This document shows positions 11,711-57,986 of a stretch of DNA of 64,000 nucleotides, in pieces. The stretch is taken from assembly GCF_001687335.1 (NCBI RefSeq), contig NZ_MAGO01000009.1:1-64000 (forward strand). Reading direction: 5' to 3'. The number at the start of each line of letters is the position of its first letter. The stretch's first letter is position 1. The notes beneath the pieces were generated by a model. That model saw only the letters and a list, made by a program, of their open reading frames with translations, was not told where the DNA came from and made no database searches. Made by a program: the position numbers and the translations under genes. The DNA comes from Dissulfuribacter thermophilus (GTDB taxonomy: Bacteria; Desulfobacterota; Dissulfuribacteria; Dissulfuribacterales; Dissulfuribacteraceae).

Positions 11711-11905
11711 GAACAAGAAGGAGATGTCTTTTGGCGAGGGTAGAGGAGCAGCATGTGGGTGGTGGGGTGAGGTGAGGTGGGATGGGCAGTACAACCCCTG
11801 TGGGACATGGTCTCACTTTTCGGACATGCTCCGCTCGGCCGACCTAGTCGGCATCCCTGCTGACAAGGTCGGGGCGTGCGTCCATGCACATCCCCTCAAC
11901 CCCTG
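11608..11905. repeat. Hairpin-rich repeat, copy 1 (partly degenerate)
   Basis: It shares with 18912-19350 the left end (ACACCGTGGGT), GTTGGAG..AAC.AGAAGGA, GGGATGGGCAG, GTGGGACATGGTCTCA and the hairpin CCGACCT..TCGGCA..AGGTCGG (11840-11874). The hairpin carries a G.T wobble where copy 2 has G-C. The right third of the element is absent and an extra segment of about 75 nt sits near 11630-11705. No conserved protein is encoded. Confidence 0.7.
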
Positions 11906-11908
11906 TAA

Positions 11909-12008
11909 TAAAGTTTTGAGTGTTGATTTTTGAGTTTTAAGTTGAAGGAATAGGGCTATTAAAGGCTGCTTCCTCTAACTCATAACTCAAAACTCAACAC
12001 TTTTAAAA
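11909..12008. repeat. CTCAACACTC-type repeat, inverted pair
   Basis: The left arm (11910-11950, AAGTTTTGAGTGTTGATTTT onward) is the reverse complement of the right arm (11970-12008, CTCATAACTCAAAACTCAAC onward), so the pair could form a long imperfect hairpin downstream of ftsY. The same words occur at 32057-32155 and, as two tandem units inside a gene, at 54249-54345. Confidence 0.75.
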
Positions 12009-12043
12009 GGTTGTGCCTTTGTCATCCGGAATGAAATTTCATT

Positions 12044-13027
12044 TCATTTACTAAAGAGCGCGTCGACGAAGACTTCTGGCTCAAAGGGTTCTAGGTCTTC
12101 CATCTTTTCGCCGATACCAATGAAGCGGATTGGTAATTTGAGTTCATTGGTAATGCTCACGACAATGCCACCTCTTGCCGTACCATCGAGTTTTGTGAGA
12201 ATGATCCCTGTGAGCGGAGTCACTTCGTGGAACTGTCTGGCCTGATTCAGGGCATTCTGACCAGTAGTTGCATCAAGTACCAAAAGCACTTCATGAGGCG
12301 CGCCATCTAGTCTCTTACCTATGACTTTCCTAATCTTTTTAAGCTCCTCCATTAGGTTGACCTTGGTATGGAGCCTTCCAGCAGTATCAATGAGTACTAC
12401 ATCGACCTGTCGTTTTAGAGCAGCCTGAATACCGTCAAAGGCAACTGCTGATGGATCGGCCCCAGGACTGTGGTGAATCACAGGTATGTCAAGGCGTTCT
12501 CCCCAGGTCTGGAGTTGTTCGATTGCTGCAGCCCTAAAGGTGTCTGAGGCAACAAACAAGACCTTTTTCCCTTGATTTTTTAGGTGATAACCCAGTTTTG
12601 CAATGGTAGTGGTCTTACCAACTCCATTTACGCCGACCATAAGTATGCAATAGGGAGTGGGCTCCCAGGGGATATCATGGTCAGTTACCTTTACCATAGA
12701 TGAAATGATTGCCTTAAGTCTAGTCTTTAGTGCCTCTCCATCTTGGAGTTCAGATCTCGCAACTTCACTCCTCACCTGTGAAAAGATTTCTTCAACTGTG
12801 CTTACACTGATATCTCCGGTTACAAGGAGCTCTTCTAGTTCATCTAGGAGTTCATCGTCGATTTTACTCTTCCCAAAGAGTAGGTCATCAACCTGTCTCA
12901 TGAAGCCCTTGCGGCTTTTTTCGAGCCTTAGCTTTAGTTTTGAGATCAGACCCTGAGATTCTTGTTTTTCTATTGTATTTGCAGTATGTTGCTCTTCTTT
13001 ATCTTTTTTAAAAAGTCTTCCAAGCAT
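12044..13027 (-). CDS. ftsY: Signal recognition particle receptor FtsY
   Basis: 327 aa. A short acidic/lysine-rich N-terminal part (MLGRLFKKDKEEQHTANTIE) precedes the NG domain. GTPase motifs are clear: G1 GVNGVGKTTT (about 128-137), DTAGRLHTKVNL (G3, about 215), TKLDGTARGG (G4 region, about 275), and the closing GIGEKMEDLEPFEPEVFVDA. FtsY docks ribosome-SRP complexes at the membrane translocon. The A domain is short compared with E. coli, as in many other phyla. The gene stands alone, with repeats on its downstream side and a divergent IHF-like gene upstream. Confidence 0.96.
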   Translation of the reverse strand: MLGRLFKKDKEEQHTANTIEKQESQGLISKLKLRLEKSRKGFMRQVDDLLFGKSKIDDELLDELEELLVTGDISVSTVEEIFSQVRSEVARSELQDGEALKTRLKAIISSMVKVTDHDIPWEPTPYCILMVGVNGVGKTTTIAKLGYHLKNQGKKVLFVASDTFRAAAIEQLQTWGERLDIPVIHHSPGADPSAVAFDGIQAALKRQVDVVLIDTAGRLHTKVNLMEELKKIRKVIGKRLDGAPHEVLLVLDATTGQNALNQARQFHEVTPLTGIILTKLDGTARGGIVVSITNELKLPIRFIGIGEKMEDLEPFEPEVFVDALFSK

Positions 13028-13185
13028 CTTTCTTAATCCTTTTGGGAATGTTTTATTGTCATGATTATATTGCTGATTGAAGAACAGCCATATATCTCAA
13101 TTGAATATTAGGTCTTGACTAGGAGCAAATATTAACGTAGTTAAAATTATTGTAAATACTGCAAGTTTTGAAATGGAGGTAAAAC

Positions 13186-13479
13186 GTGAATAAATCCCAG
13201 CTTATTGAAGCCCTCTCTCAAGAGACAGGCCTAAGCCGTGCAAATGCTGAGTTTATTGTAAATGAGGTATTTCAGGCCATGACAGAGGCCCTTGCTCAAG
13301 GTGAAGGGGTCGAGATCAGGGGATTTGGCAGCTTTTCTATCCGTGAATACGAGGCTTATGAAGGCAGAAACCCAAAGACAGGGGAAAAGATAAAGGTGCC
13401 TCCAAAGAAGTTGCCCTTTTTCAAAGTAGGAAAGGATCTGAGGGAAAGAGTGAAAAACAAGGTCCAGATGAAAGACTGA
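13186..13479 (+). CDS. IHF/HU-family DNA-bending protein (IHF-beta-like)
   Basis: 97 aa. Full HU/IHF fold: MNKSQLIEALSQETGLSRAN, then GVEIRGFGSFSIREYEAYEG and the DNA-intercalating arm GRNPKTGEKIKVPPKKLP. The RGFGSF and GRNPKTG segments are closer to IHF than HU, and the arm lacks insertions. It starts at GTG, supported by GGAGG about 6 nt upstream. It is divergent from ftsY, and TTGACT at about 13115 could be part of a promoter. Predicted role: nucleoid architecture and, as IHF, bending at sigma54 promoters and recombination sites. Confidence 0.93.
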   Translation: MNKSQLIEALSQETGLSRANAEFIVNEVFQAMTEALAQGEGVEIRGFGSFSIREYEAYEGRNPKTGEKIKVPPKKLPFFKVGKDLRERVKNKVQMKD

Positions 13480-13487
13480 TGAATTTA

Positions 13488-13889
13488 TTAACCCATCTCT
13501 TTTATTTTAATGCCATTTAACAGTAAAAGAGCTGCAGTTACGCCAATGACGGGTGAAAGCCCACAGGAAGGACTTTTAGACTTTAATATCGCACAGTTAA
13601 CCTGAAACATTTTGGCCAATTTCAATGCCTCTTTGGCCCCTTTCAAAAAGTATGGGGTTACGTCTTCTCCAGATTCTGAAATTACCTTGGCCTTGCCGTT
13701 TAAGACATCTATTCCATTACCATAAAGGATTGAGGCAGGGGGTCTTGGGGTTGGAAGCCCTCCTAATTGTTCTGGGCATATAGGAATTACATGCATATTG
13801 GCAAGGCCGCTCACCAATTCTGGAGCGGCCTTGGTCTTGCCATCATATCTAGTTTTGAGTCCTAAAAGACATGCGCTTACTATGATCAC
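13488..13889 (-). CDS. DUF523 family protein
   Basis: 133 aa. The sequence opens IIVSACLLGLKTRYDGKTK and contains VIPICPEQLGGLPTPRPPA, FLKGAKEALKLA and AILKSKSPSCG, the conserved Cys-containing segments of DUF523. Function of the family is not established; the spacing of Cys residues (CLLG, CPEQ, CG) suggests a metal or cluster site. It follows purM in the same direction with a gap of only 7 nt, so the two are probably co-transcribed. It ends tail-to-tail with the IHF-like gene. Confidence 0.85.
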   Translation of the reverse strand: MIIVSACLLGLKTRYDGKTKAAPELVSGLANMHVIPICPEQLGGLPTPRPPASILYGNGIDVLNGKAKVISESGEDVTPYFLKGAKEALKLAKMFQVNCAILKSKSPSCGLSPVIGVTAALLLLNGIKIKEMG

Positions 13890-13896
13890 AGGGTCT

Positions 13897-14949
13897 TTAG
13901 ATATTCTCTATAACTACCTGAGGTTCTTCATTTTTTCTTGGAGCAATATATCCTATGGAAAATGCCTTTTCATCCATTGCCTGTATTTGGAAGAGGACAT
14001 CTTTGGCATCTTGTTCAGGAACCACCAATATCATTCCTATGCCGCAGTTGAATGTCCTGAACATCTCCTCCTTTGAAATGTCACCGCGCTCTTGCAAGAA
14101 ATTGAATATCGGAGGCATTGGCCATGATCCTTTTTTGATCACAGCCTTACAAGACGATGGAAGGATCCTTGGGATGTTGTCGAAAAATCCTCCGCCTGTG
14201 ATGTGTACAATTCCCTTAATGGGAGAGCCTGCCTTCAAGAGATGGAGTACTACTGGAACATAGATTTTAGTCGGTACTAATAGTTCGTCTGCAACGGTTT
14301 TGCCATCAAATCCTGGTATTTCGTCGTGTATCTTTAGACCCAATTCATCGAAAAAGATCTTTCTTACAAGCGAGTAGCCATTTGAGTGAATACCATTTGA
14401 AGCCAGACCTATTAAGACGTTTCCAACTCCGATTTCTGACCCATCAATGATCTTATTCCGTTCCACTACGCCCACTACGAAGCCTGCTAGGTCGTATTCA
14501 CCAACTTGGTATAGACCTGGCATTTCAGCGGTTTCCCCACCTATGAGGGCACAACCTGCCTCTTTGCAACCATCGGCAATGCCTTTGATTACTGCTTCTG
14601 CAACTTGATTTTCCAGTTGTCCTGTAGAGAAGTAGTCCAGGAAAAAGAGTGGGCTGGCTCCACAGACAACTATATCGTTCACACACATGGCAACCAGATC
14701 GATGCCAATTGTATCATGTCGATTAGCCATTATGGCAATCTTTATCTTTGTGCCGACCCCGTCTGTGGATGCAACCAGAACTGGTTCTTTATACTGTTCA
14801 GTATCTAAGGCAAAAAGGCCGCTAAAACCCCCAATCTCTGTTAATACTCCACGCTTGAATGTGGAGGTCACTATAGGTTTAATGGCCTCAATCAGGGCAT
14901 TGGCCTTATCTATGTTGACTCCTGCTTCTTCGTATCTGCTCTTCTTCAA
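13897..14949 (-). CDS. purM: Phosphoribosylformylglycinamidine cyclo-ligase PurM
   Basis: AIR synthetase of purine synthesis. Family segments: YEEAGVNIDKANALIEAIK, STDGVGTKIKIA, DIVVCGASPLFFLDYF, GGETAEMPGLY and HITGGGFFDNIPR. The frame stays open to a TTG at 15000, but AAAGGAG followed by 8 nt and a TTG at 14949 gives a 350-aa product starting at KKSRYEEAG, close to the usual 345 aa, so I prefer it. ATG at 14982 has no Shine-Dalgarno. It follows glnE directly and precedes a DUF523 gene, all on the minus strand. Confidence 0.93.
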   Translation of the reverse strand: MKKSRYEEAGVNIDKANALIEAIKPIVTSTFKRGVLTEIGGFSGLFALDTEQYKEPVLVASTDGVGTKIKIAIMANRHDTIGIDLVAMCVNDIVVCGASPLFFLDYFSTGQLENQVAEAVIKGIADGCKEAGCALIGGETAEMPGLYQVGEYDLAGFVVGVVERNKIIDGSEIGVGNVLIGLASNGIHSNGYSLVRKIFFDELGLKIHDEIPGFDGKTVADELLVPTKIYVPVVLHLLKAGSPIKGIVHITGGGFFDNIPRILPSSCKAVIKKGSWPMPPIFNFLQERGDISKEEMFRTFNCGIGMILVVPEQDAKDVLFQIQAMDEKAFSIGYIAPRKNEEPQVVIENI

Positions 14950-31960: not shown

Positions 31961-32172
31961 CTTCTGCCTTCTCCCTTCTTCCTAATCTTAATAGGTAGAA
32001 GGGAGAAGGTAAAAGCAGGCCCTGCCAGTACCCAAGCCAGAGGCCCTCCCTTCTAGCTTCAACTCAAAACTTCCAAAGCTCTTTTCCTTCAACTCAACAC
32101 TCAACACTTCTGAAATGCTCAACACTCAACACTTAAAACTCAACACTTTTAAAAAGCTTCTCCCTTCTCCCT
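31960..32172. repeat. Inverted-repeat element with nested CTCAACACTC repeat
   Basis: It has a hairpin CCTTCTCCCTTCT/AGAAGGGAGAAGG, then AGCAGGCCCTGCCAGTACCC and AGCCAGAGGCC, and closes with AGCTTCTCCCTTCTCCCTTT. The words TGCCAGTACC and AG.GGCC recur at 41026-41062. Between them, 32057-32155 holds CTTCAACTCAAAAC- and CTCAACACTCAACACTT-type words, i.e. one repeat nested in another. Confidence 0.55.
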
Positions 32173-37626: not shown

Positions 37627-37731
37627 AGCCTTATAATATGGTAAATAATACGTTTGTCTAGAGCTTCTAGTTGGTTTAGCTCACTAGACGGACATAGCCA
37701 GAAAGGAAGATTATGAATGTTAGGAGGCGTC

Positions 37732-39516
37732 ATGGCAAAGCATAAGGTATTGGTTGTAGGTTCTGGGGGTAGAGAGCATGCCCTCTGCTGGAAACTCTCC
37801 CTTAGTCCCCATATTGAAGAAGTAATATGTGCCCCAGGAAATTCTGGAATTGGGATGCACGCCCGTTGCGTAGACGTTTCTGCCGACGACATCAAGGGAT
37901 TGGCAAAACTAGCTGAAGAAGAGGGCGTATATTTAACAGTGGTTGGACCAGAGGCCCCGCTAGCATTAGGGATTGTAGATGAGTTTGAAAAGAGGGGGCT
38001 CAGGATCTTTGGCCCTAATAGTGGTGCTGCTCAGATAGAGGCGAGCAAGGTCTTTACAAAGAATCTCCTTGACAAATATGGAATTCCAACAGGTGCATTT
38101 CAGGTTTTTGAAGATCCAAAGGAGGCAGAGGGCTATATAGAGTACATAGACATGCCGGTTGTGCTAAAGGCCGATGGCCTTGCTGCTGGAAAAGGGGTCA
38201 TAATATGCCAGACAAAGGAGGCTGCCAAGGATGCGCTCATGCGCATCATGGTAAACAAAGAGTTTGGTGAGGCTGGGAAAAGACTTGTAGTTGAAGAATT
38301 CCTAAAGGGTGAAGAGGCCTCTTTTATGGCTATAACCGATGGAAAGACCACTCTGCCTCTGGCCACTTCCCAGGACCACAAAGCTGTATTTGACGGTGAT
38401 ACAGGTCCAAATACAGGTGGTATGGGTGCCTATAGCCCTGCGCCTGTAGTCGATCCAAGACTCTTTGACGTGACTATGGAAATCATTATTTCTCCCACCA
38501 TAAAGGCCATGGAGCAGGAAGGGGTCCCATACAGAGGAGTGCTATACGGGGGACTAATCATAGACAACAGCCAGCCCAAGGTACTTGAATACAATTGCAG
38601 GTTTGGTGATCCTGAAGCACAGCCAATCTTGATGAGATTAAAGAGCGACCTCTTTGAGGTTATAGAAGCTGCAATGGAAGGGAGACTCCATGAAATCGAG
38701 CTTGAGTGGGACGACAGGGCTGCGGTATGCATTGTGCTGGCCTCCAAAGGCTATCCTGGTCCCTATGAAAAGGGAAAAGAGATTCACGGCCTTGAAGAAG
38801 TCAAAAAGATGGAGGACGTCTTTTGCTTCCACGCTGGCACCAGGGAAGAAGGAGGCAAGTTTTATACAAATGGCGGGAGAGTCCTTGGGGTAACTGCATT
38901 GGGTGACACCATAGAAGACGCCATAAACAGGGCCTATGAGGCCGTGGAGTTGATTTCCTGGGAGGGCATGCATTACAGGCTGGATATAGGTCAAAAGGCC
39001 CTCAAATATCCAACATCCAGAAGGGATAACACCCCAAAGGTTGGCATCTTGATGGGAAGCCCTTCAGATATGGGTATTATGAATGAGGCCAAAAAGACCC
39101 TTGAAGAGCTTGGCATAGCCTGTGAGATGCATTGTATCTCTGCGCACAGGTCCCCAGAACTTGCAGCCCAATATGCAAAGAATGCCAGACAAAGAGGGAT
39201 AAAGGTCCTGATTGCCGGTGCAGGCATGGCAGCGCACCTTGCAGGAGCCCTTGCAGCACACTCGCCTCTGCCTGTAATCGGCGTTCCCATCGATTCCTCT
39301 TCCCTAGGTGGACTTGATGCCCTTTTATCCACTGTCCAGATGCCTCCTGGTGTTCCAGTGGGCACTGTGGGGATTGGAAAAGCTGGTGCAAAGAATGCCG
39401 CAATACTCGCTGCCCAAATACTTGCTGTGGGAGATCAAGGGGTTCAAAGGAGGATACTGTCTCTCAAAGAGGCAATGAGAAGGCGTATTGAAGAAGGTTC
39501 AAAGTTTAAGGTTTAA
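37732..39516 (+). CDS. purD: PurD-PurE fusion (phosphoribosylamine-glycine ligase and NCAIR mutase)
   Basis: 594 aa. Residues 1-420 are a complete GARS (PurD): VLVVGSGGREHALCWKLSLS, PTGAFQVFEDPKEAEGYI, VLKADGLAAGKGVIICQT and EYNCRFGDPEAQPILMRL. From about 430 to the end is PurE: VGILMGSPSDMGIMNEAKKT, CISAHRSPELAAQYAKNARQ, IAGAGMAAHLAGALAAHSPL, and GVPIDSSSLGGLDALLSTVQ, the class I (mutase) type with both catalytic His and Ser present. TTAGGAGGCGTC precedes ATG 37732. The two steps are not consecutive in the pathway (2 and 6), so the fusion probably fixes stoichiometry or operon order. Confidence 0.93.
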   Translation: MAKHKVLVVGSGGREHALCWKLSLSPHIEEVICAPGNSGIGMHARCVDVSADDIKGLAKLAEEEGVYLTVVGPEAPLALGIVDEFEKRGLRIFGPNSGAAQIEASKVFTKNLLDKYGIPTGAFQVFEDPKEAEGYIEYIDMPVVLKADGLAAGKGVIICQTKEAAKDALMRIMVNKEFGEAGKRLVVEEFLKGEEASFMAITDGKTTLPLATSQDHKAVFDGDTGPNTGGMGAYSPAPVVDPRLFDVTMEIIISPTIKAMEQEGVPYRGVLYGGLIIDNSQPKVLEYNCRFGDPEAQPILMRLKSDLFEVIEAAMEGRLHEIELEWDDRAAVCIVLASKGYPGPYEKGKEIHGLEEVKKMEDVFCFHAGTREEGGKFYTNGGRVLGVTALGDTIEDAINRAYEAVELISWEGMHYRLDIGQKALKYPTSRRDNTPKVGILMGSPSDMGIMNEAKKTLEELGIACEMHCISAHRSPELAAQYAKNARQRGIKVLIAGAGMAAHLAGALAAHSPLPVIGVPIDSSSLGGLDALLSTVQMPPGVPVGTVGIGKAGAKNAAILAAQILAVGDQGVQRRILSLKEAMRRRIEEGSKFKV

Positions 39517-43063: not shown

Positions 43064-43979
43064 ATCGAATCCGGAGGACCTACCTCACGTTCCTGTAATG
43101 GAAGAAGAGGTGTTGAGGCTCCTTGCTGAAATCAGGCCAAGATCCGTAGCTGATGGCACCTGTGGAGCAGGTGGACATGCACATACACTTTTGGAAAACG
43201 TGTCATCTATTGAGAGATATTTTTGCATTGACTGGGATAAGAATGCCTTAAGTATCGCCAGAAAGAGACTGAACTCGCACAAAAATAGGGTGGAATTCGT
43301 TCATTCAAACTTTAGACACATCCCGCAACTCATTCCCGCCTATGGCATATCAAAACTCGATGCCATTTTATTGGATCTGGGGCTGTCAACCATGCATCTT
43401 ACGTCTAGCGGTAGGGGATTCAGTTTCACAAAGGATGAACCACTGGACATGCGCATGGACGACTCGGAACCTACAACAGCACTCGATCTCATCAATAACC
43501 TTTCAGAGGCCCAGTTAGCCGCACTCATCAGGGAGTACGGCGAGGAAAAATGGGCTAAAAAGATCGCAGGGGTAGTGAAAGACTACTGTGAGCACACCTC
43601 TATTCCCACGAGTAAAGGCCTTGCAGAGGCTATTAAGCGCGCAATACCAAGGCGTTTTCATCCCAAAAGAATCCACCCTGCAACTCGCACGTTTCAGGCG
43701 CTCAGGATCGCTCTCAATCGAGAACTCGATAACCTTAAAGTGGCCCTACATGACTTTCCAAACATCTTGAATGAGGGTGGAAGATTCCTTGTTATTTCAT
43801 TCCATTCTCTGGAAGACAGGCTCGTAAAACACAGCTTCAAAAATGACCCACGCATGCGTCCCATAACAAAACGGCCTCTCAGGCCAACTAGCCAGGAAAT
43901 AACTGTAAATCCAAAGGCAAGGAGTGCAAAACTTAGATGCGCTGAGAGGATCAGCGCTGAGGAGGTAAATAATGTTTAG
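43026..43979 (+). CDS. rsmH: 16S rRNA (cytosine-1402) N4-methyltransferase RsmH (MraW)
   Basis: 317 aa. HVPVMEEEVLRLLAEIRPRS, SAM motif ADGTCGAGGHAHTLLE, DAILLDLGLSTMHL and FSFTKDEPLDMRMDDSEPTT, ending with RFLVISFHSLEDRLVKHSFK. It methylates C1402 of 16S rRNA. It overlaps mraZ by about 38 nt and ftsL by 8 nt, typical coupling in dcw clusters. The ATG at 43026 has only a weak ribosome site; a TTG at 43023 is equally possible. Confidence 0.96.
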   Translation: MNTVALSQIIQNKSNPEDLPHVPVMEEEVLRLLAEIRPRSVADGTCGAGGHAHTLLENVSSIERYFCIDWDKNALSIARKRLNSHKNRVEFVHSNFRHIPQLIPAYGISKLDAILLDLGLSTMHLTSSGRGFSFTKDEPLDMRMDDSEPTTALDLINNLSEAQLAALIREYGEEKWAKKIAGVVKDYCEHTSIPTSKGLAEAIKRAIPRRFHPKRIHPATRTFQALRIALNRELDNLKVALHDFPNILNEGGRFLVISFHSLEDRLVKHSFKNDPRMRPITKRPLRPTSQEITVNPKARSAKLRCAERISAEEVNNV

Positions 43980-44316
43980 CAGGGCCGCTTCATTAAAAAC
44001 AGCCAGATTGCAGTCCACCCACAGGCTTAGAACCAGACAGAGATCTGGGGCAAGGAGTACCATATCTCTGAGAGAGATGGGGCTAATATTTATTTCAGTC
44101 GTCCTTTTTGGATTGAGCGTGGTAACAGGATACGAGATCAAAAGTGTATCCAAAGAGATCTCGACCTACAGGGAGGAACTGAAGGCCTTCGGTGAAGAGG
44201 AGGAGAGACTAAAAGGGGAGTTGGCGCGCTTTACTGAAAAGACGCGCTTGGAGAAAATAGGAAGGGCCCTTGGCCTACATCCTCCCAAGAAAAGCCAAAT
44301 CGTCCACATCAAATAG
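43972..44316 (+). CDS. ftsL: Cell division protein FtsL
   Basis: 114 aa. Basic cytoplasmic tail (about 35 residues, with RLRTRQRSGARS), one membrane segment (LREMGLIFISVVLFGLSVVTGY, residues about 33-54), then a coiled coil (SVSKEISTYREELKAFGEEE onward). The order and position between rsmH and the PBP gene identify it; FtsL sequence is otherwise weakly conserved. FtsL with FtsB and FtsQ activates the septal synthase FtsWI, which makes the degeneracy of its neighbour notable. Confidence 0.85.
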   Translation: MFSRAASLKTARLQSTHRLRTRQRSGARSTISLREMGLIFISVVLFGLSVVTGYEIKSVSKEISTYREELKAFGEEEERLKGELARFTEKTRLEKIGRALGLHPPKKSQIVHIK

Positions 44317-44327
44317 AGGGGACATCC

Positions 44328-45560
44328 ATGAAAAGGAATAGAAAAAAGACAAGACGACCCCAAATCCCCTTCCTCTCATTGTTGGTGGTACTCCTTGTTC
44401 CCCTATTTTGTTTCTTGTTTAGGGGACCTGAAACTGAAATAGAGGCCAATACTGGGCCTAACTACGTTCCAATACGTGGAAATATATTTGACAGGACTGG
44501 GACATTGCTCGCCTATAGTAAAAAAGACCCCAGTGGAGCAGTAAAACGGATTTACCCTTACGGCGACATGGCCAAGGCCATTATTGGTGAGGTGGATTCA
44601 TGGGGAAGGGGTATATTTGGTGCAGAGCTCTTGATGGATGAGGTCTTGTTATCCCAAAAAGACATCAGTCTTACCCTCGAAAGAGAGGTTCAGATCACGT
44701 CAGAAGAAGTCCTCAATATGCAAATGGCCAAATTTAATGCCACCTTTGGCTGTTTTATAATGATGGATGCAAATACTGGAGAAATCCTTGCCCTTTCAAC
44801 TAGGTCTAAGCTTAAGGAAGACGAGGCACACATAGGTGAACCACTTTATCTCAAACCACTTTTTCATCCAGGGCTGCTCTCAATCCCAATCAGATGGTTA
44901 CGGGAAAATGAAGAATTTGATGAAGACAATCTCAAGAGTGGGCATAAGTGGGTTGACATAGATAGTGGCCAAAGCCTCTGGTCCCCCTGGACTAAATCCA
45001 CTCTGCAACGTTTTTTAGATGAAAAGAGGTCAGTAACAAAAGAACTAATTGATTTGGGTTTTGGAGATGGTAATGGAAAGGTGCCTATCTACACCTACAA
45101 TATCTTTGAGGAAGACTTCAAATCCTCTCCCCTAAATATTCTCAGGGCCTTCGCATCCTTAATTAACGATAATGGATTGATCTCTCCATATTTTATCAAC
45201 ACCCTAGACTTTCCATCTGAAAAGCGAGCCATACCGTGGCTTGATCAGAAAAAGAGAGAATCTCTTAGAGAGCTCTTGTCTGGTTTCTCTACTCCTTCCA
45301 TAGCAAGCGTTTGGTGGAAGAAGGAAGAGACATCAGGATCAAAGAGGTGCGAGATTATTGCATTGGGTTATTGGCCAAGGCAATCTCCCAAGGTGGTTTA
45401 CATAACCGCCATTAAAGGCGCATCCTATGATCCTATTCAAAGGCCTGGGATACTAAGCAGAGCCAGACGTGCACTCAAGCTCGGAGCAGCATTACCTGAG
45501 GAAAAAATACTCTCTTATAGGGTAGGCGGAGAAGGTGACGTTAAAAAAGTCGTCCAATAA
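44328..45560 (+). CDS. FtsI-like penicillin-binding protein without transpeptidase motifs (pseudoenzyme)
   Basis: 410 aa, against about 570-650 for active FtsI. The N-terminal membrane segment (about 12-32), the RGNIFDRTGTLLAY dimerisation motif (about 51-64) and YPYGDMAKAIIGEVDSWG are retained, but the pedestal is short. In the transpeptidase fold MMDANTGEILALSTR is clear, then the place of PGSTFK reads HPGLLSIPIRW: Ser and Lys are Leu and Ile. No Ser-x-Asn is found near FLDEKRSVTKELIDLGFGDG, and the KTGT strand is replaced (SGSKRCEIIALGYWPRQ). It overlaps murE by 26 nt. Gene position is that of ftsI; activity is unlikely. Confidence 0.85.
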   Translation: MKRNRKKTRRPQIPFLSLLVVLLVPLFCFLFRGPETEIEANTGPNYVPIRGNIFDRTGTLLAYSKKDPSGAVKRIYPYGDMAKAIIGEVDSWGRGIFGAELLMDEVLLSQKDISLTLEREVQITSEEVLNMQMAKFNATFGCFIMMDANTGEILALSTRSKLKEDEAHIGEPLYLKPLFHPGLLSIPIRWLRENEEFDEDNLKSGHKWVDIDSGQSLWSPWTKSTLQRFLDEKRSVTKELIDLGFGDGNGKVPIYTYNIFEEDFKSSPLNILRAFASLINDNGLISPYFINTLDFPSEKRAIPWLDQKKRESLRELLSGFSTPSIASVWWKKEETSGSKRCEIIALGYWPRQSPKVVYITAIKGASYDPIQRPGILSRARRALKLGAALPEEKILSYRVGGEGDVKKVVQ

Positions 45561-47070
45561 GAGCTCGCTGGGTGTTCCAGTTAAGCCCTTTTGTCTCAAG
45601 ACCAAAGAATTGGTTCGAGGTCTTGGTGATCTAGTAGTCTCTATCCACGGTGAACTACCACCTGATATCAAGGGGATTGCAATTGATTCCAGACAGGTAA
45701 GGCAAGGCTACCTTTTTGTTGCCATAAGGGGGGAACGCAGTTCTGGCGAAGAATATATTGAACATGCCGTTAGAAATGGCGCCAATATGGTGATTCTTCC
45801 AGAAGGTGCAGGCATCCCTAAATATATTTCGTCCATATTGAGTCGAGACACAAAGGCCTGTGCCGGGATTGCAGCAAGCCTGTTTTATGGAAACCCAACA
45901 GAGAGTTGCCCTGTTGTGGCTGTTACCGGTACCAATGGTAAGACCACTTTTACTTATCTTATGGAAGCCATTTTAAAAGAGGCAGGACTGAGGCCAGGGG
46001 TCATTGGTACTGTGAATTATAGACTAGGGTCACTTTCGTGGCCCGCTCCCCTTACAACTCCTGATCCTGTGACTCTTCAAAGGACAATACGGGAAATGAT
46101 AACAAATGGCGCGGACTCCATAATTATGGAGGCATCAAGCCATGCATTGGATCAAAAGCGTCTTTGGGGTTCCAAGATTAGGTGTGCTGTATTCACCAAT
46201 ATGACCAGAGATCATTTGGACTATCACAAGACAATGGACAATTATTTTTTGGCAAAACAAAGCCTCTTTTCAGACTATTGTCCAGAGGTCTCTGTGTTCA
46301 ATATTGACGATCCCTATGGGAAGACCATGTATCTTCATTCAAGGGGTGAAAGCATTACCTATGCAATTGACAATGAGGCCGATATTAGGCCAAAGAAACT
46401 CAATATCGACATAAATGGCATTTATATGGCCATAGACCTCTATGGGAAGACTGTCTCTATTACTTCTGAGCTCATTGGTAAATTCAATGTCTACAACATA
46501 CTTGCCGCTGTGTCTGCTGCTATATCCATGGAGATTCCTTCCCATGCCATTCAAATGGGAATAGCCAAGTGCAGGAACATACCTGGCAGGATGGAGCGAG
46601 TGGCTAGCGACTCTTCTATAATGGCTTTTGTAGACTATGCCCATACTCCAGATGCAGTGGAACGAATATTGAAAGAGATTAGTCTCCTTGGACCAAGACG
46701 TGTAATAACTGTCTTGGGATGTGGAGGTGACAGAGACAGGGGGAAAAGGCCTCTTATGGGGGCTATAGCATCCAGGCTTTCTGATATAGCGGTTTTTACC
46801 ACTGACAATCCAAGGTCTGAAGACCCTCTGAGGATCATTGATGACATGCTCCATGGCGTTAGTGACAGGGATCGGATGAGAGAATCAATAAAGGTCATTC
46901 CCGACAGAGAAGAGGCAATTTTCTGGGCAATTGAACAGGCGAAGACCGGGGATGCAGTCTTGGTTTTGGGTAAGGGGCATGAAACTTGTCAGATAATTGA
47001 CAATCAAAAGATATATTTTGATGATAGGGTGATTTTAAAAAGGGCATTAGAGGAAAAGTTGTCATGTTGA
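45535..47070 (+). CDS. murE: UDP-MurNAc-tripeptide synthetase MurE (meso-DAP type)
   Basis: 511 aa. GIAIDSRQVRQGYLFVAIRG, P-loop VAVTGTNGKTTFTYLMEAIL (about 127-146), MEASSHALDQKRLWG, VFTNMTRDHLDYHKTMDNYF and the DNPRSEDPLRI motif that reads meso-diaminopimelate rather than lysine. It adds DAP to UDP-MurNAc-L-Ala-D-Glu, giving a Gram-negative type stem. It starts at a GTG inside the FtsI-like gene (26-nt overlap) and overlaps murF by 7 nt. Confidence 0.96.
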   Translation: MTLKKSSNKSSLGVPVKPFCLKTKELVRGLGDLVVSIHGELPPDIKGIAIDSRQVRQGYLFVAIRGERSSGEEYIEHAVRNGANMVILPEGAGIPKYISSILSRDTKACAGIAASLFYGNPTESCPVVAVTGTNGKTTFTYLMEAILKEAGLRPGVIGTVNYRLGSLSWPAPLTTPDPVTLQRTIREMITNGADSIIMEASSHALDQKRLWGSKIRCAVFTNMTRDHLDYHKTMDNYFLAKQSLFSDYCPEVSVFNIDDPYGKTMYLHSRGESITYAIDNEADIRPKKLNIDINGIYMAIDLYGKTVSITSELIGKFNVYNILAAVSAAISMEIPSHAIQMGIAKCRNIPGRMERVASDSSIMAFVDYAHTPDAVERILKEISLLGPRRVITVLGCGGDRDRGKRPLMGAIASRLSDIAVFTTDNPRSEDPLRIIDDMLHGVSDRDRMRESIKVIPDREEAIFWAIEQAKTGDAVLVLGKGHETCQIIDNQKIYFDDRVILKRALEEKLSC

Positions 47071-49677: not shown

Positions 49678-49702
49678 AAAGGGATTGAATAGACGTAGGG
49701 CA

Positions 49703-51076
49703 ATGAAAAAGCTTGCTGTTCTAGGCATAGGCAAAAGCGGGATTTCTGCTGCTCGTTGGGCAGTCAAGATGGACTTTGAGTGCGTCTTGAGCGATAAAAG
49801 GCCCAAAGATCAATGGCCCAAAGACCTCCTCGAGTGGTGTGAGGCCAAAGGGGTCGTAGTGGATTTTGGGGAGCACAGTGAAGATAAAATATTGACCTCA
49901 GATGTGATCTGTCCTAGCCCAGGGATACCACATGACATTCCCATACTTGAGGAGGCAAGGCGCCTCAATATCCCCATTGTTGGTGAGGCTTGCCTTGGAG
50001 TAAGCCTTTGGAAGGGGCCAAAGATAGGTATTACCGGAACTAATGGTAAGACTACTGTAACCACCCTTGTGGGACAGATGTTGAAAGAGTCTGGTGTCCC
50101 AGTCTTTGTTGGGGGAAATATTGGTAATCCAATACTGGAACAGGTGGATTCCGTTCCTCCAGGCACAGTACTGGTTGCTGAGATTAGCAGTTTTCAGTTA
50201 GACCTTTTTCCATGGGAACGGGATAGTTATCAATTACCGCAACCAGTTTTCGATGTGGCGGTCCTCCTCAATGTTGCCCAGGATCACCTGGAACGATATG
50301 AGGACTTTGACGCATACGCCAAGAGCAAGGCTAGGATATTTCAGTTTCAGGACAGATCGGGGTGGGCCATAACAGGAGAAGATGAACTGGCACTGTTGAA
50401 GGGGCTAGGTGTGGTGCCTAAGGCAAGGACAATAGTGATTAAGTCCTCTAGTCTAGGCCCAAAGACCTCAGTGCTCACGATTATGTGGCCAGAGGGTGGG
50501 GAAGAAGACTATGACCTCAGTAAGGTCAATTTGCCAGGAGAACACAACATCTCTAACCTATATGCAGCCATTACCGCATCCAGGTTAATGGGGGCGAAGA
50601 TTTCGGTTATTCAAAGGGTTATAGAGAGATTTAAACTCCCTAAAAGCAGGCTTGAATTGGTGAAAACAGTAAAGGGTGTGAAGTTTATTAATGATTCTAA
50701 GGCGACGAATCTCCACGCCACCCTGGCCGCTATTAGATCTATTGATGCACCAATAGTTTTAATAGCCGGAGGCCTAGGAAAGGGACAGGACTTCAGTCTA
50801 TTAAGGGAACAAAACGTTCAAAATAGAGTAAAGGCGGCAGTACTAATGGGGAGTTCAGCAGAAGATCTGAAGCGTAGTTTAGGCAACGTGCCTTGTTTTT
50901 TGGTCAATGGGAAAGGTGATGGATGGCAGAAGATGGAAGAGGCAGTGAAACTTGCCTTTTCAAAAGCTGAAGATGGGGATGTGGTGCTATTGTCCCCAGC
51001 GTGTGCAAGTTTCGACCTTTTTGGCGGATATGAAGAAAGGGGTGAGGCCTTTAGAGATGCAGTCAAACGGCTCTAA
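49703..51076 (+). CDS. murD: UDP-MurNAc-L-alanine:D-glutamate ligase MurD
   Basis: About 457 aa. KKLAVLGIGKSGISAARWAV, CPSPGIPHDIPILEEARRLN, P-loop GITGTNGKTTVTTLVGQMLK (about 112-131), SSFQLDLFPWERDSYQL, LLNVAQDHLERYEDFDAY and LLSPACASFDLFGGYEERGE. It adds D-glutamate to UDP-MurNAc-L-Ala. I start at ATG 49703; a TTG at 49685 has AAAGGGA only 2 nt before it. In most bacteria ftsW would follow here, but the next gene, murG, starts 76 nt downstream. Confidence 0.95.
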   Translation: MKKLAVLGIGKSGISAARWAVKMDFECVLSDKRPKDQWPKDLLEWCEAKGVVVDFGEHSEDKILTSDVICPSPGIPHDIPILEEARRLNIPIVGEACLGVSLWKGPKIGITGTNGKTTVTTLVGQMLKESGVPVFVGGNIGNPILEQVDSVPPGTVLVAEISSFQLDLFPWERDSYQLPQPVFDVAVLLNVAQDHLERYEDFDAYAKSKARIFQFQDRSGWAITGEDELALLKGLGVVPKARTIVIKSSSLGPKTSVLTIMWPEGGEEDYDLSKVNLPGEHNISNLYAAITASRLMGAKISVIQRVIERFKLPKSRLELVKTVKGVKFINDSKATNLHATLAAIRSIDAPIVLIAGGLGKGQDFSLLREQNVQNRVKAAVLMGSSAEDLKRSLGNVPCFLVNGKGDGWQKMEEAVKLAFSKAEDGDVVLLSPACASFDLFGGYEERGEAFRDAVKRL

Positions 51077-51152
51077 CCCCATTACAATCAATCCTTTTAC
51101 TGGTAGCCCTGGCATGCTGTTTCAGATGCGTTACGGAGACTGCGAAGGCACA

Positions 51153-52307
51153 ATGTCTAGCCATAGAGCACCCGACAGCAATGCAGATGGGCTGGGCGGT
51201 GATCGTTTGTCAAATAGGCTTAACGTGGCCGTGGCAGGTGGCGGGACCGGAGGACATATCTTTCCTGGTGTCGCCATTCTAAGAGCGCTCGAGGCCTTGA
51301 GACCTCTCAATATCCTATGGATAGGAACTGGAAAAGAAGTGGAAAGACAGATCCTTGAATCGTTGACTATAGAGTATACAGAACTCAAGGTCCGGCCATT
51401 TCACGGAGCTGGATTGGGTAGTTTGATTAGGGCAATTACAACGCTACCCATTTCTATATCGAGGGCCCGTTCCATTTTGAAGGATTTCAATCCCAATGTA
51501 GTCCTTGGTATCGGTGGATATGTGGCGGGTCCAGTCATGATCGCTGCGAGAAGCCTCAATATACCACTTGTGATTCATGAACAAAATGTCATACCAGGCC
51601 TTACAAATCGTCTTGGAGCCAGATTTGCTCAAAAGATATTCATTAGTTTCAAGGGATCGCAGAGTTGGTTCCCTGGGGGCAAATCAATACTTACTGGAAA
51701 CCCCGTTAGAGAGGAGTTTTTAAAACTCAATAAACACGATGATGGCAAAGAGTATGCTTCAAGGCCAAAACACATACTGGTGATTGGCGGCAGTCAAGGG
51801 GCCAGGGCCATAAACAGGCTAGCCACATGTGCTTTAGCTATCCTTGCCAAATCAGGAATAGATCTGGAAGTCATTCATCAGACCGGTAAACAGGACCAGG
51901 AATATACTAGAAGGGTGTATAGAGAAGCTGGAATCAAGGCATCGGTATATGGATTCATCAATGATATGGCCAGTGCCTATGCCTGGGCAGATCTCGTGGT
52001 TTCTAGGGCAGGTGCTGGCACTTGTGCCGAGCTTTCAGTTACGGGGACACCGTCTATATTGATACCTTATCCTCATGCTGCCTCTAGCCACCAGGAGGCA
52101 AATGCCAAGGAGCTTGAAAGCTGTGGTGCATCTATTACATTCCGCGAAAACGAGGTGGGTCCAGAAAGACTTGCTTCAACAATTCAGGCCCTGTTGTTAG
52201 ATACTGAAAGGCTGAGCCAGATGAGGCAGGCTGCGAGATCCATTGCGCAGCCATACGCAGCGAAGACCATTGCAGAGCAAATTCTGAAGATTGTGGAGGA
52301 AGCGTAA
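51153..52307 (+). CDS. murG: UDP-GlcNAc:lipid I GlcNAc transferase MurG
   Basis: 384 aa. The start at ATG 51153 (GAAGG 5 nt upstream) leaves a 27-residue lead before the GT-B fold: NVAVAGGGTGGHIFPGVAIL (G-rich loop 1), PLVIHEQNVIPGLTNRLGAR, VIGGSQGARAINRLATCALA (UDP site), YAWADLVVSRAGAGTCAELS and PYPHAASSHQEANAKELES. It makes lipid II. A longer frame begins inside murD but would repeat nothing known. Lead residues SSHRAPDSNADGLGGDRLSN are low-complexity and probably unstructured. Confidence 0.95.
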   Translation: MSSHRAPDSNADGLGGDRLSNRLNVAVAGGGTGGHIFPGVAILRALEALRPLNILWIGTGKEVERQILESLTIEYTELKVRPFHGAGLGSLIRAITTLPISISRARSILKDFNPNVVLGIGGYVAGPVMIAARSLNIPLVIHEQNVIPGLTNRLGARFAQKIFISFKGSQSWFPGGKSILTGNPVREEFLKLNKHDDGKEYASRPKHILVIGGSQGARAINRLATCALAILAKSGIDLEVIHQTGKQDQEYTRRVYREAGIKASVYGFINDMASAYAWADLVVSRAGAGTCAELSVTGTPSILIPYPHAASSHQEANAKELESCGASITFRENEVGPERLASTIQALLLDTERLSQMRQAARSIAQPYAAKTIAEQILKIVEEA

Positions 52308-53719: not shown

Positions 53720-54701
53720 AAAAATATATACCCAGTTAAAGGGCATTCCAGATATTTGGGTGAAGAGGGATAGCAATCTCTCTTCGCTAACAACCTTCAA
53801 GATTGGAGGTGATGCAAGACTTTGGATTGCGCCCCTATCTGTGGATGCCTTGGTATCGTGCCTTGGGCTGCTAAAAGACAATGAGATTGACTTTCACATT
53901 CTAGGTGGGGGTAGCAATGTAATCATCTCTGACCATGGTGTTGATTGCGTTTTAGATACCAGGGGACTTGCCTGGATCAAGAGCATAGGTGAAGGACAGT
54001 ATGAAGTGGGGGCTGGATTCTCCCTTAAAAGATTAGTTGCCCTTTCAGTTAAGAATGGGTTAAGCGGCTGCGAGGGGCTTGCCGGCATCCCCGGGAGTGT
54101 AGGTGGGGCAATTGCAATGAATGCTGGGGGAAAAAACGTCGCCATTGGAGACTTGGTTACCCATTTACTTATTGCTGATTCAGGCGGTACAAGATGGATT
54201 CCCAGAGAAAAAGTGCAGTTTGGCTATAGAAAGTGCGTGATCGAAGACCGTTCCTTCAACTCAACACTCAACACCCAAAACTCAAAACTTTTAATGGAGC
54301 GTTCCTTCAACTCAACACTCAACACTCAAAACTCAAAACTTATCATTGCTGGGGCCAGGATTTCCCTGCAAAAATCAAGGGAACGAATAGTTAGGGATTA
54401 TGTTTTGTCTATAATGGATCGGCGAAAAAAGACACAGCCTTTAGGTAAACCCAGTGCCGGTTGCATATTTAAAAATCCTCGCTCCACCCCTGCTGGAAAA
54501 CTTATTGAGATGGCAGGGTTGAAGGGAATGCAATGTGGCGGGGCAGCTGTGTCTGTCAAACATGCCAATTTTATAGTGAACCTTGATAGAGCAAGGGCAC
54601 AGGATGTAGTTGATCTTATAAAACGTGTGAGGGAAAAGGTATTTGAGAATTTTAATGTCTTGTTGGAACCTGAGGTAAAAACTATGGGAGTGAGTCTTTG
54701 A
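53688..54701 (+). CDS. murB: UDP-N-acetylenolpyruvoylglucosamine reductase MurB, with in-frame repeat insertion
   Basis: 337 aa. FAD-domain segments LTTFKIGGDARLWIAPLSVD, ILGGGSNVIISDHGV, GLAGIPGSVGGAIAMNAGGK, FGYRKCVIED and, near the C terminus, PSAGCIFKNPRSTPAGKLIE with the catalytic Ser region. Between IED and IIAGARISL sit two copies of RSFNSTLNTQNSKLL-type sequence, absent from normal MurB, encoded by 51-nt tandem units at 54249-54345. The insert falls in a loop between family strands and keeps the frame, so the enzyme is probably still active. GGAG 7 nt before ATG 53688 supports the start. Confidence 0.93.
   Translation: MNKRPSRQLFEKIYTQLKGIPDIWVKRDSNLSSLTTFKIGGDARLWIAPLSVDALVSCLGLLKDNEIDFHILGGGSNVIISDHGVDCVLDTRGLAWIKSIGEGQYEVGAGFSLKRLVALSVKNGLSGCEGLAGIPGSVGGAIAMNAGGKNVAIGDLVTHLLIADSGGTRWIPREKVQFGYRKCVIEDRSFNSTLNTQNSKLLMERSFNSTLNTQNSKLIIAGARISLQKSRERIVRDYVLSIMDRRKKTQPLGKPSAGCIFKNPRSTPAGKLIEMAGLKGMQCGGAAVSVKHANFIVNLDRARAQDVVDLIKRVREKVFENFNVLLEPEVKTMGVSL
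54249..54345 (+). repeat. Two tandem 51-nt CTCAACACTC-type units inside murB
   Basis: Units begin at 54249 and 54300 with CGTTCCTTCAACTCAACACT and share AACTCAACACTCAACAC.C and AAAACTCAAAACTT. The same words make up the intergenic repeats at 11909-12008 and 32057-32155. 51 nt is divisible by three, so the MurB frame is kept. Confidence 0.85.
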
Positions 54702-55501
54702 AAGCTGTAAGGCAAACATACAGGAAGAAGACAAAGGCAAAAAAGACTGTTAGGCCACAGGTTCTGGTGGCTGTGCTCTTTATCGCCATTTTAATTGTTG
54801 GCGGAACGTATGGTATACGTCTGGGCTGGAAATGGTTGCACTCCACTCCCTTGTTTGCGGTTCAGGAAATTAAGATAAATGGGATAAATAGGGTCAAGAA
54901 ACAATGGGTGCTCCACGCCATTGATTTAAAGGACGGCGAGAACATACTGGGCCTAAAGAAGGAGGACATTAAAGAGCGTATTTTAGAGAATCCGTGGATA
55001 AAGTCTTTAAAAATTTCAACTGATTTCCCACATACCCTGGTGATAGACATCGTTGAAAGACGTGCAATAGCTTTCTTAAAGGACAGAGGTAAGACCTATC
55101 TATTGGATTCGGATGGCGAGATCTTTAAGGTTGCCGAGGGAAAGGAGGCAGATGGTCTGATAGAAATAGAGGGGATAAAAGCCTCTGGTAATGGTGACAG
55201 GACCATAAAATATGTAGGAACGTTTAAGGAGTTTGTGAGACTTGTAAATAAGCGTGGCAGGATACTTTGCGAAAGGAACATCAAATCTGTGGGATTTGAT
55301 GGAAAATCCATGGTGGTCACAACAAGGGGCTCTAGAATTCCCCTTGTGTTTTCCCTGGATCAGGGCTTGAAGGTCCAGTTTAAGAGGGCAGAATCAATAT
55401 TATTTCACCTTTACTCTTCGGGCAAATATAGGCATGTAAAGATTGTAAATCTTTCAGTAGGTAAGAACATGGCATTGGCTTTTATGGATAAGAGGGTATG
55501 A
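54698..55501 (+). CDS. ftsQ: Cell division protein FtsQ
   Basis: 267 aa. A basic cytoplasmic tail (RQTYRKKTKAKKTVRP), one membrane segment (VLVAVLFIAILIVGGTYGIR, residues about 23-42), then a POTRA domain (LFAVQEIKINGINRVKKQWV, then ENILGLKKEDIKERILENPW and TDFPHTLVIDIVERRAIAFL). The C-terminal beta domain ends KIVNLSVGKNMALAFM. FtsQ scaffolds FtsB/FtsL at the divisome. It starts at a TTG that overlaps the murB stop (TTGA). Confidence 0.93.
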   Translation: MKAVRQTYRKKTKAKKTVRPQVLVAVLFIAILIVGGTYGIRLGWKWLHSTPLFAVQEIKINGINRVKKQWVLHAIDLKDGENILGLKKEDIKERILENPWIKSLKISTDFPHTLVIDIVERRAIAFLKDRGKTYLLDSDGEIFKVAEGKEADGLIEIEGIKASGNGDRTIKYVGTFKEFVRLVNKRGRILCERNIKSVGFDGKSMVVTTRGSRIPLVFSLDQGLKVQFKRAESILFHLYSSGKYRHVKIVNLSVGKNMALAFMDKRV

Positions 55502-55502
55502 G

Positions 55503-56747
55503 ATGGGAGATATGAGTCGAATGGGCTCAACACCTGACAGTGATATAATCGTTGGTCTCGATATTGGCACAACCAAGATATGTGCCCTGGTTGGGGTGCT
55601 GACTGAAGACGGAGTTGAGGTTGTGGGAGTGGGAACCCACCCATCAGTAGGGCTACGAAAAGGGGTTGTGGTAAATATCGAGAGCACAGTCAATTCAATT
55701 CAGAGGGCCGTTGAAGAGGCCGAACTCATGGCTGGCTGTGAGATCTCACAGGTCTTGATAGGTATTGCAGGCAGCCACATTAAAGGGTTCAACAGTCATG
55801 GTGTCATTGCCATAAAGGGAGAGGAAGTCACAGAAGATGACGTAAATCGTGTGATCGAGGCTGCAAAGGCAGTGGCGATCCCTCTGGACAGAGAACTCAT
55901 TCATTGTCTTCCACAGGAATACATTGTAGACGATCAGGGCGGAATTTCAGACCCAGTTGGCATGACAGGGGTTCGACTTGAGGCCAAGGTTCACATTGTA
56001 ACTGGGGCAGTGACAGCAGCGCAAAATCTCATTAAGTGTGCCAATAGGGCTGGACTCGACGTAGAAGATATTGTGCTTCAACCTCTGGCCTCTGCTCATG
56101 CAACGCTTACCAGCGAGGAAAAGGACCTTGGTGTAGCGTTGATAGACTTTGGAGGTGGGACCACAGATCTGGCCATATTTACTGAAGGGACTATTAAACA
56201 TACTTCTGTCCTTGGACTCGGTGGCAACAATCTCACAAATGACATTGCAGTTGGATTAAGGACTCCAATGACAGAGGCGGAGAAAATAAAACTAAGATTT
56301 GGAAGTTGTCTAAGTTCCTATGTCAAGAAGGATGAGATGATAGAGGTGCCGAGTGTTGGGGGCAGAAAACCAAGACTCCTATCCCGACATATACTTGCAG
56401 AGATCTTGGAGCCGAGGGTTGAAGAGATACTATCACTGCTTGAACAGGAGATTAGGCGTACGGAATTCAAGGATCTTTTGGCCTCTGGGGTCGTGATTAC
56501 AGGGGGATCAGCGTTACTCCCTGGAATGGCCGAGATTGCAGACCAGATCTTTGATCTGCCGACCCGTATTGGCTTTCCAAAGGGCATCACTGGTCTCACT
56601 GATATTATAAACGGCCCTCAGTTTGCTACTGCTGTTGGATTGCTACTTCATGGTGCGAAAAAGGCCCCAAAAAGAAAATTCAGGATACGGGACAGGAATA
56701 TCTTTAACAGGGTGACCTCAAGAATGAAATCTTGGTTCAGGATTTGA
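55503..56747 (+). CDS. ftsA: Cell division protein FtsA
   Basis: 414 aa. Actin-like: IIVGLDIGTTKICALVGVLT (phosphate 1), VLIGIAGSHIKGFNSHGVIA (1C domain), ALIDFGGGTTDLAIFTEGTI (phosphate 2), VVITGGSALLPGMAEIADQI (adenosine) and a C-terminal amphipathic stretch NRVTSRMKSWFRI that anchors FtsZ to the membrane. It starts 1 nt after ftsQ. Sequence and length are normal. Confidence 0.97.
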   Translation: MGDMSRMGSTPDSDIIVGLDIGTTKICALVGVLTEDGVEVVGVGTHPSVGLRKGVVVNIESTVNSIQRAVEEAELMAGCEISQVLIGIAGSHIKGFNSHGVIAIKGEEVTEDDVNRVIEAAKAVAIPLDRELIHCLPQEYIVDDQGGISDPVGMTGVRLEAKVHIVTGAVTAAQNLIKCANRAGLDVEDIVLQPLASAHATLTSEEKDLGVALIDFGGGTTDLAIFTEGTIKHTSVLGLGGNNLTNDIAVGLRTPMTEAEKIKLRFGSCLSSYVKKDEMIEVPSVGGRKPRLLSRHILAEILEPRVEEILSLLEQEIRRTEFKDLLASGVVITGGSALLPGMAEIADQIFDLPTRIGFPKGITGLTDIINGPQFATAVGLLLHGAKKAPKRKFRIRDRNIFNRVTSRMKSWFRI

Positions 56748-56768: not shown

Positions 56769-57986
56769 ATGAGCTTTGAATTTGTGGAATCTGATCTTTC
56801 TGCAAAGATTAGAGTAATAGGTGTAGGTGGTGGCGGCGGTAATGCCGTTAACAATATGATTGAATCCAATCTTAGAGGAGTAGATTTTATAGCTGCAAAT
56901 ACAGATGCCCAGGCCCTGGATCGCTCCAAGGCTGGGGTCAAGATTCAGCTCGGTAAAGGGCTTACTAAAGGCCTTGGAGCAGGGGCCAGGCCTGAGATCG
57001 GAAGAGAAGCAGCTGAAGAGAGTGCTGAAGAGGTGCGTGCTGCCCTTGAGGGAAGTGACATGGTCTTTATCACAGCTGGCATGGGAGGTGGAACTGGAAC
57101 AGGAGGGGCCCCTGTAATTGCGGAGATCAGTAAGGAGCTAGGGGCACTTACAGTGGCAGTGGTTACCAAGCCATTTCTGTTTGAGGGAAAGAGGCGTCGA
57201 GAGATCGCGGAACGCGGCCTCGAGGAGTTGAGGAAGGTAGTGGACACTATCATTACCATACCTAATGATAGGTTACGTAGCCTTGCAGATTCAAAGACGC
57301 CGTTTTTCCAGCTCTTCAAAAAGGCAGACGAAGTGCTCTATTACGCGGTAAGGGGTATCTCAGATCTAATCGTGGTGCAGGGCTATGTAAACGTCGATTT
57401 TGCCGATGTGAGGACAGTCATGTCAGAGATGGGGCTGGCATTGATGGGGACTGGCATGGCACGAGGAGAGAGACGTGCAATAGAGGCCGTTCGTATGGCA
57501 ATAGCCAATCCACTCCTAGAAGACATCACCATAAGTGGTGCAAGGGGAATATTGATGAATATTACTGCGAGCCCAGATACTCTTACGTGGGAAGAGGTCG
57601 AACAGGCCTCCACACTTATACACGATGAGGCCCATGAGGATGCGAACATAATTTGGGGAACAGTATTTGATGAGAGTATTGGAGATGAGATCAGGGTTAC
57701 AGTGATCGCTACTGGAATAGGAGGAGAGGCTGAACAGGCAGAGCCAATGGTGGTAAATGTAAAGTCCCAGAGGGAAAATGATGTCCATGGAGATCCAAGG
57801 GGATTGACTGACCAGGGCGTAAAGATATATACAACCCGGGACGAACCCAGTGTAATAAGAATAGATGACCTCAGAGGTGGGGTGGTCACCAGGAAAAAGA
57901 CAAACGAAGTCCCATTGAAAGGACTCGACGAAATAGATGAGGACGAGTTAGAGGTCCCTACTTTTTTGAGGAAAAAGGCAGACTAG
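56769..57986 (+). CDS. ftsZ: Cell division GTPase FtsZ
   Basis: 405 aa. [20 protein letters not shown], the tubulin signature [20 protein letters not shown] (about 103), [20 protein letters not shown] and the synergy-loop segment [21 protein letters not shown] variable linker of about 60 residues leads to the C-terminal tip [15 protein letters not shown], the site bound by FtsA/ZipA-type partners. GGAGGG 8 nt upstream sets the start. It is the last gene of the dcw cluster. Confidence 0.98.

Follow-up and report, generated by a model that had tools for sequence, protein, structure and literature searches.

Whether the gene standing in the ftsI slot of a dcw cluster still encodes a septal transpeptidase, and what builds the septum if it does not, is the question raised by an open reading frame of 410 codons (44328..45560, forward strand) in the window, a stretch of 64,000 nucleotides from the genome of Dissulfuribacter thermophilus. 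The FtsW-FtsI pair is treated as the near-universal synthase of the septal wall, and FtsI as a universal target of beta-lactams. The cluster in the window is ordered mraZ-rsmH-ftsL-ftsI-murE-murF-mraY-murD-murG-murC-murB-ftsQ-ftsA-ftsZ, and the sequence-only reading of this locus had taken the product of its ftsI-slot gene (hereafter pseudo-ftsI) for a penicillin-binding protein (PBP) that has lost its active site.

The gene in the ftsI slot and its product

The pseudo-ftsI frame opens with ATG and is flanked on the same strand by ftsL (43972..44316), which is retained but divergent (NCBIfam ftsL_broad, 3.7e-05, below its cut-off), and by murE (45535..47070, identified by family match), the next gene of the cluster. 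The proposed coupling of the gene to murE by overlap holds if murE starts at the GTG at 45535, a start that is unproven. Further downstream, ftsQ (54698..55501, with a POTRA domain scoring over its cut-off), ftsA (55503..56747) and ftsZ (56769..57986) are all retained on the forward strand. Several other features of the coding sequences were observed. The heptamer AACTCAA repeats in frame within murB (54258-54340), resulting in a doubled RSFNSTLNTQNSKL peptide, and similar repeats lie at 32093-32141 and 11911-11995 of the window (10 matches versus 0.06 expected), while the frame at 37717-39516 reads on sequence inspection as a PurD-PurE fusion. In the f2 genus, murE and murF share one long open frame (loci L042 and L049, about 11870-14800; 1061 and 1027 codons), which may represent a MurE-MurF fusion.

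An alignment with 24 live FtsI sequences bore out the absence of all three catalytic motifs, SxxK, SxN and KTG. The place of EPGSTFK is taken by HPGLLSIP, and within the hexapeptide PGLLSI that replaces the catalytic PGSTFK (44868..44885, forward strand), Leu183 and Ile186 occupy columns that are Ser and Lys in at least 90% of the aligned sequences. The SxN segment is deleted, and no K[TS]G was found in the KTG columns of this alignment, which hold gaps or unrelated residues. The stray SKLK (residues 160-163) and KSG (203-205) are out of register and have no PG before them. In addition, neither PG[SA]xxK nor S[SC]N[IV] occurs in any other reading frame of the locus, and the sole [KR]TGT is the RTGT within the N-terminal IFDRTG motif. 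The product scored under the Pfam cut-offs for both the Transpeptidase domain (14.9 bits versus 22.1) and the PBP_dimer domain (19.8 bits versus 24.4), and much of the N-terminal pedestal head as well as the C-terminal PASTA domain is missing.

What is left is nonetheless recognizable as FtsI. A transmembrane helix is predicted at residues 13-41 (44364..44450, forward strand; an AlphaFold2 helix over the hydrophobic stretch PFLSLLVVLLVPLFCFLF), followed by the pedestal pieces RGNIFDRTG, RIYPYG and GRGIFGAE (44475..44675, forward strand), which were placed by alignment columns; residues R50, G51, D55, R74, Y76, P77, G87, G98 and E100 fall in columns that are invariant in live FtsI too. The transpeptidase domain begins with beta-strands around FIMMDANTGEILALSTR (44745..44807, forward strand; Pfam Transpeptidase residues 141-160, pLDDT 84-85). 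The AlphaFold2 model, built with 25 sequences, has a mean pLDDT of 58.4 and is confident in the transmembrane helix, the pedestal and part of the transpeptidase core, with residues 163-265 below 50. This partly low-confidence model matched PBP3/FtsI structures in Foldseek at E 8e-16 (probability 1.00, TMq 0.49). Thus the earlier statement that the transpeptidase fold is otherwise readable stands as far as the fold match goes, but not for the pedestal head and the PASTA domain, which are gone, nor for the sub-threshold Transpeptidase domain. Taken together, the product resembles FtsI/PBP3 in its dcw position between ftsL and murE, its membrane anchor, its pedestal motifs and its PBP3-like fold, and differs in lacking the catalytic Ser, Lys and Asn, the KTG strand, the head, the PASTA domain, Pfam scores at the gathering level and, in its genome, an FtsW partner. 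These comparisons support the view that 44328-45560 encodes a former FtsI, predicted from its sequence to be without transpeptidase activity.

Loss of FtsW and the state of FtsI in relatives

The order Dissulfuribacterales (class Dissulfuribacteria, phylum Desulfobacterota) was represented by 46 genomes, including the window genome. The three motifs were absent from all 34 of its readable FtsI-slot proteins, which span ten families and form one sequence family together with the window gene. By comparison, a GTDB-wide control scan gave 80 FtsI loci, every one with PGSxxK, and the FtsI motifs, PGSxxK included, were found in 10/10 FtsW-bearing members of the phylum, one of which has a split reading frame. 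The genomes of the order are drafts, with the exception of the one-contig genome of Dissulfurimicrobium hydrothermale (G006), published for strain Sh68 at 2,025,450 bp (PMC8780430); this hybrid-assembled complete genome is among those with a dead FtsI. A contrast of 34 dead proteins out of 34 in the order with 80 live ones out of 80 elsewhere is explained neither by chance nor by a sequencing slip.

The partner of FtsI is missing as well. The window genome (2.52 Mb, 99.97% complete, a draft of 27 contigs) contains a single SEDS protein, RodA, encoded in an mreB-mreC-mreD-mrdA-rodA operon, and no ftsW was found in it. The ftsW gene, which exceeds 1 kb, is normally preceded by murD. In the window, murD (49685..51076, forward strand, from the reading of the dcw cluster) is followed immediately by murG (51153..52307, forward strand), and the junction between them (51077..51152, with the ATG at 51153 taken as the murG start) is too short for ftsW. 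The same direct succession was seen in the eleven other genomes of the order read at this position, D. hydrothermale included, whereas in those phylum members that possess FtsW, its gene lies at the murD-murG junction and FtsI is live. RodA is alone in 45 of the 46 genomes (44 of 45 besides the window genome); G032, an 89%-complete draft, shows no SEDS protein, and G015 carries a 16-bit scrap beside RodA. In a SEDS tree, the twelve dcw-encoded FtsW proteins grouped in one clade (support 1.0); the lone SEDS proteins of the FtsW-less genomes all fell outside it, with known RodA. A relocation of FtsW within the window genome was therefore rejected, since its only SEDS protein is RodA by both tree and context, and gaps in drafts cannot account for a loss common to the 46 genomes of the order. 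With FtsW gone too, it is the FtsWI synthase as a whole, and not one PBP, that has changed. The pseudoenzyme reading, which is backed by the alignment, the Pfam scores, the relatives and the fold match, is essentially right but too limited, as it missed the absence of ftsW.

This condition is not a quirk of one order. Seven more families of the phylum (f25, f28, f34, f37, f57, f66 and f68) have RodA only, and FtsI was dead or gutted in all 14 FtsW-less genomes examined outside the order. The FtsI slot holds a full-length protein without motifs in f25, f28 and f66, a shortened one in f68, a pedestal only in f37, and, in f34 and f57, nothing but a transmembrane segment and a PASTA domain; in these last two families, the protein was identified as FtsI by its position and by that domain. 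In a tree of ten dcw proteins, the order and f37, f68, f25 and f66 formed one FtsW-less clade (0.99), with f28 near it and f34 plus f57 elsewhere, amid FtsW-bearing genomes, which indicates at least two losses of FtsW. About 98 of 394 phylum genomes with completeness of at least 95% (roughly a quarter, by hand count) belong to families in which nearly all members have a single SEDS protein that scores as RodA-like; the FtsI-slot readings leave out families f78, f90, f97, f113, f114 and f118 of this census.

In view of these data, two readings in which the window genome would keep a working enzyme lose nearly all of their probability. That a normal FtsI is hidden by a sequencing error, a frameshift or a mis-assembly might be entertained for a draft of 27 contigs, but it is refuted by the relatives, as the same state recurs in 34 genomes of ten families, one of them complete and hybrid-assembled; the lack of the motifs from the other frames and a genome-wide count of only two live transpeptidases also speak against it, and we give it practically no weight. 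The earlier exclusion of a frameshift or fusion thus proved sound. The product might, alternatively, still act as a transpeptidase or bind peptidoglycan or beta-lactams through rearranged residues, and the conservation of the domain-core stretches GFGD, SPLNILRAF and PKVVYI would fit such an activity. However, no Ser or Lys lies in register, and the regions of SxxK, SxN and KTG, which differ among relatives, are either deleted or impossible to align; this makes the reading very improbable.

Selection on the FtsI remnant and construction of the septum

The sequence-only reading had left the choice between a scaffold role and a relic being lost, and had supposed that the gene is under some constraint. 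The latter was confirmed by dN/dS ratios (Nei-Gojobori) of 0.24-0.42 across all 25 close pairs. In the pair G003/G013, for instance, the ratio was 0.263 for ftsI, versus 0.254 for ftsQ, 0.237 for murD, 0.060 for ftsA and 0.580 for ftsL. These values place pseudo-ftsI under purifying selection comparable to that on its neighbours in the divisome. Such selection supports some role for the dead protein without specifying which one.

Two transpeptidases of the window genome are live, namely MrdA/PBP2 (PGSIFK, SCD, KTGT) and one class A PBP1 (PGSAFK, SRN, KTGT). The whole-genome search revealed no second live class B PBP besides MrdA, so that a replacement of this kind was rejected. L,D-transpeptidases were likewise rejected as a general substitute because the window genome has no YkuD protein; the other 45 genomes of the order all carry one to five of them. 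Most f2 and f9 genomes possess a short live transpeptidase of 410-470 aa with SxxK, SxN and K[TS]G (loci L073 1380-2687, L074 1495-2907 and L076 1164-2396), and no PBP dimerisation domain was detected in the one such protein scanned. As this protein is absent from f1, and missing from the window genome, it too was rejected as a general substitute. With two live transpeptidases and no YkuD protein, septal synthesis is left by elimination to PBP1A, to RodA-PBP2 or to both, which agrees with the earlier expectation that septal cross-linking would depend on another PBP.

The most likely explanation, to which we assign a probability of roughly 0.7, is that the dead FtsI is kept as a non-catalytic, membrane-anchored part of the divisome, and that PBP1A and/or RodA-PBP2 builds the septum. 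Through its transmembrane helix and pedestal, the protein would stay in the FtsQ(L)-FtsA-FtsZ assembly, where it may help to place or activate the substitute synthase at mid-cell. In our view the class A PBP, which has its own glycosyltransferase and transpeptidase domains, is a little more likely than not to be the main septal synthase; it is slightly favoured by the precedent of Clostridioides difficile and by G136, in which SEDS, MrdA and MreB were not found. This member of f25 (contigs C33, C29 and C75) is a 99%-complete draft, congeneric with G059, with a dead FtsI and several class A PBPs. It may lack SEDS-class B PBP pairs altogether, or the absence may reflect one assembly gap, as a single break in a draft, if it fell on a contiguous operon, could conceal all three genes. 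In the one-contig genome G059, rodA is split over two reading frames (C1:137697-138757), whether by real decay or by sequencing error, so that no SEDS gene would remain intact.

A RodA-PBP2 pair borrowed from the elongasome may be the alternative septal synthase or a partner in the work, which we regard as an open possibility short of an even chance. We regard in the same tentative way the reading that this pair makes the septal peptidoglycan and that the dead FtsI docks it to FtsQL as an adaptor. No SEDS-class B PBP pair survives other than RodA and MrdA, nearly all of the FtsW-less genomes checked retain both, and the minimal genomes (the window genome G000, f37, f68 and G071 of f34) have just one class A PBP beside them. 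Against this stand G136 and the broken rodA of G059, which suggest that one branch or more can do without RodA-PBP2, and C. difficile, the known case without FtsWI, which relies on a class A PBP. A stronger form of the idea, that the dead FtsI is a dedicated adaptor recruiting or switching on RodA-PBP2 at the septum, so that one pair makes side wall and septum throughout a class of Gram-negative rods, and that the phylum evolved this arrangement two or more times, seems rather unlikely. Finally, pseudo-ftsI could be a decaying relic that has no present role and is held by its place in an essential operon. Erosion does appear stepwise, from the loss of head and PASTA in the window genome to the transmembrane segment plus PASTA of f34 and f57 and the bare pedestal of f37, and such eroded genes imply that the constraint may concern a minor function. 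Nevertheless, dN/dS is well under 1 in 25 of 25 close pairs, the frame is open in nearly every genome, and the gene persists in two or more FtsW-less lineages that are independent of each other, which renders a relic improbable. Of the two earlier options, therefore, retention for a role is favoured by the order-wide dead state and the dN/dS values, the scaffold itself being our inference, while decay fits the remnants of f34, f57 and f37 better than it fits the window genome.

Comparison with known divisomes

Division without FtsWI has been described in C. difficile, where a class A PBP is used (PMC10693644, PMC12539705); the second of these papers introduced it as the first example of a bacterium dividing in the absence of FtsW-FtsI. 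The likeness is considerable, as both systems have no functional FtsW or FtsI (in C. difficile, for vegetative division), retain FtsQ and FtsL, and have one class A PBP together with RodA-PBP2. However, C. difficile retains catalytic dcw synthases, SpoVE and SpoVD, for sporulation, whereas the Dissulfuribacteria are Gram-negative, have ftsW deleted and carry an FtsI that is a dead shell class-wide. In Bacillus subtilis, an inactive PBP2B (S309A) still supports division when PBP3 is present (PMC5656894), which establishes for FtsI-type PBPs that a structural role is separable from catalysis. A catalytically dead protein of this type can thus hold a structural place in the divisome; yet the S309A protein is a laboratory mutant accompanied by FtsW and PBP3, whereas the state in Dissulfuribacterales is natural and ancient. 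Within the phylum, a study of cable bacteria reported that ftsW, ftsN and zipA are missing from four Desulfobulbaceae genomes, and took FtsI as the active septal synthase (PMC7873302); that study describes neither the inactivation of FtsI nor how far the FtsW loss extends. In the open-access papers searched, we found no report of an inactive FtsI or of a class-wide loss of FtsW in these bacteria.

Throughout the lineage, FtsWI catalysis has been lost and the FtsI shell retained; with no functional FtsW or FtsI and with FtsZ, FtsA and FtsQ kept, the divisome is independent of FtsWI. An entire Gram-negative class is thus without FtsW, with FtsI dead at every such locus read and the gene for its shell under selection. 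These lineages represent natural, repeated knock-outs of FtsWI catalysis, in which the structural role of FtsI can be separated from its catalytic one, and their division is predicted to be insensitive to FtsI-specific drugs such as aztreonam.
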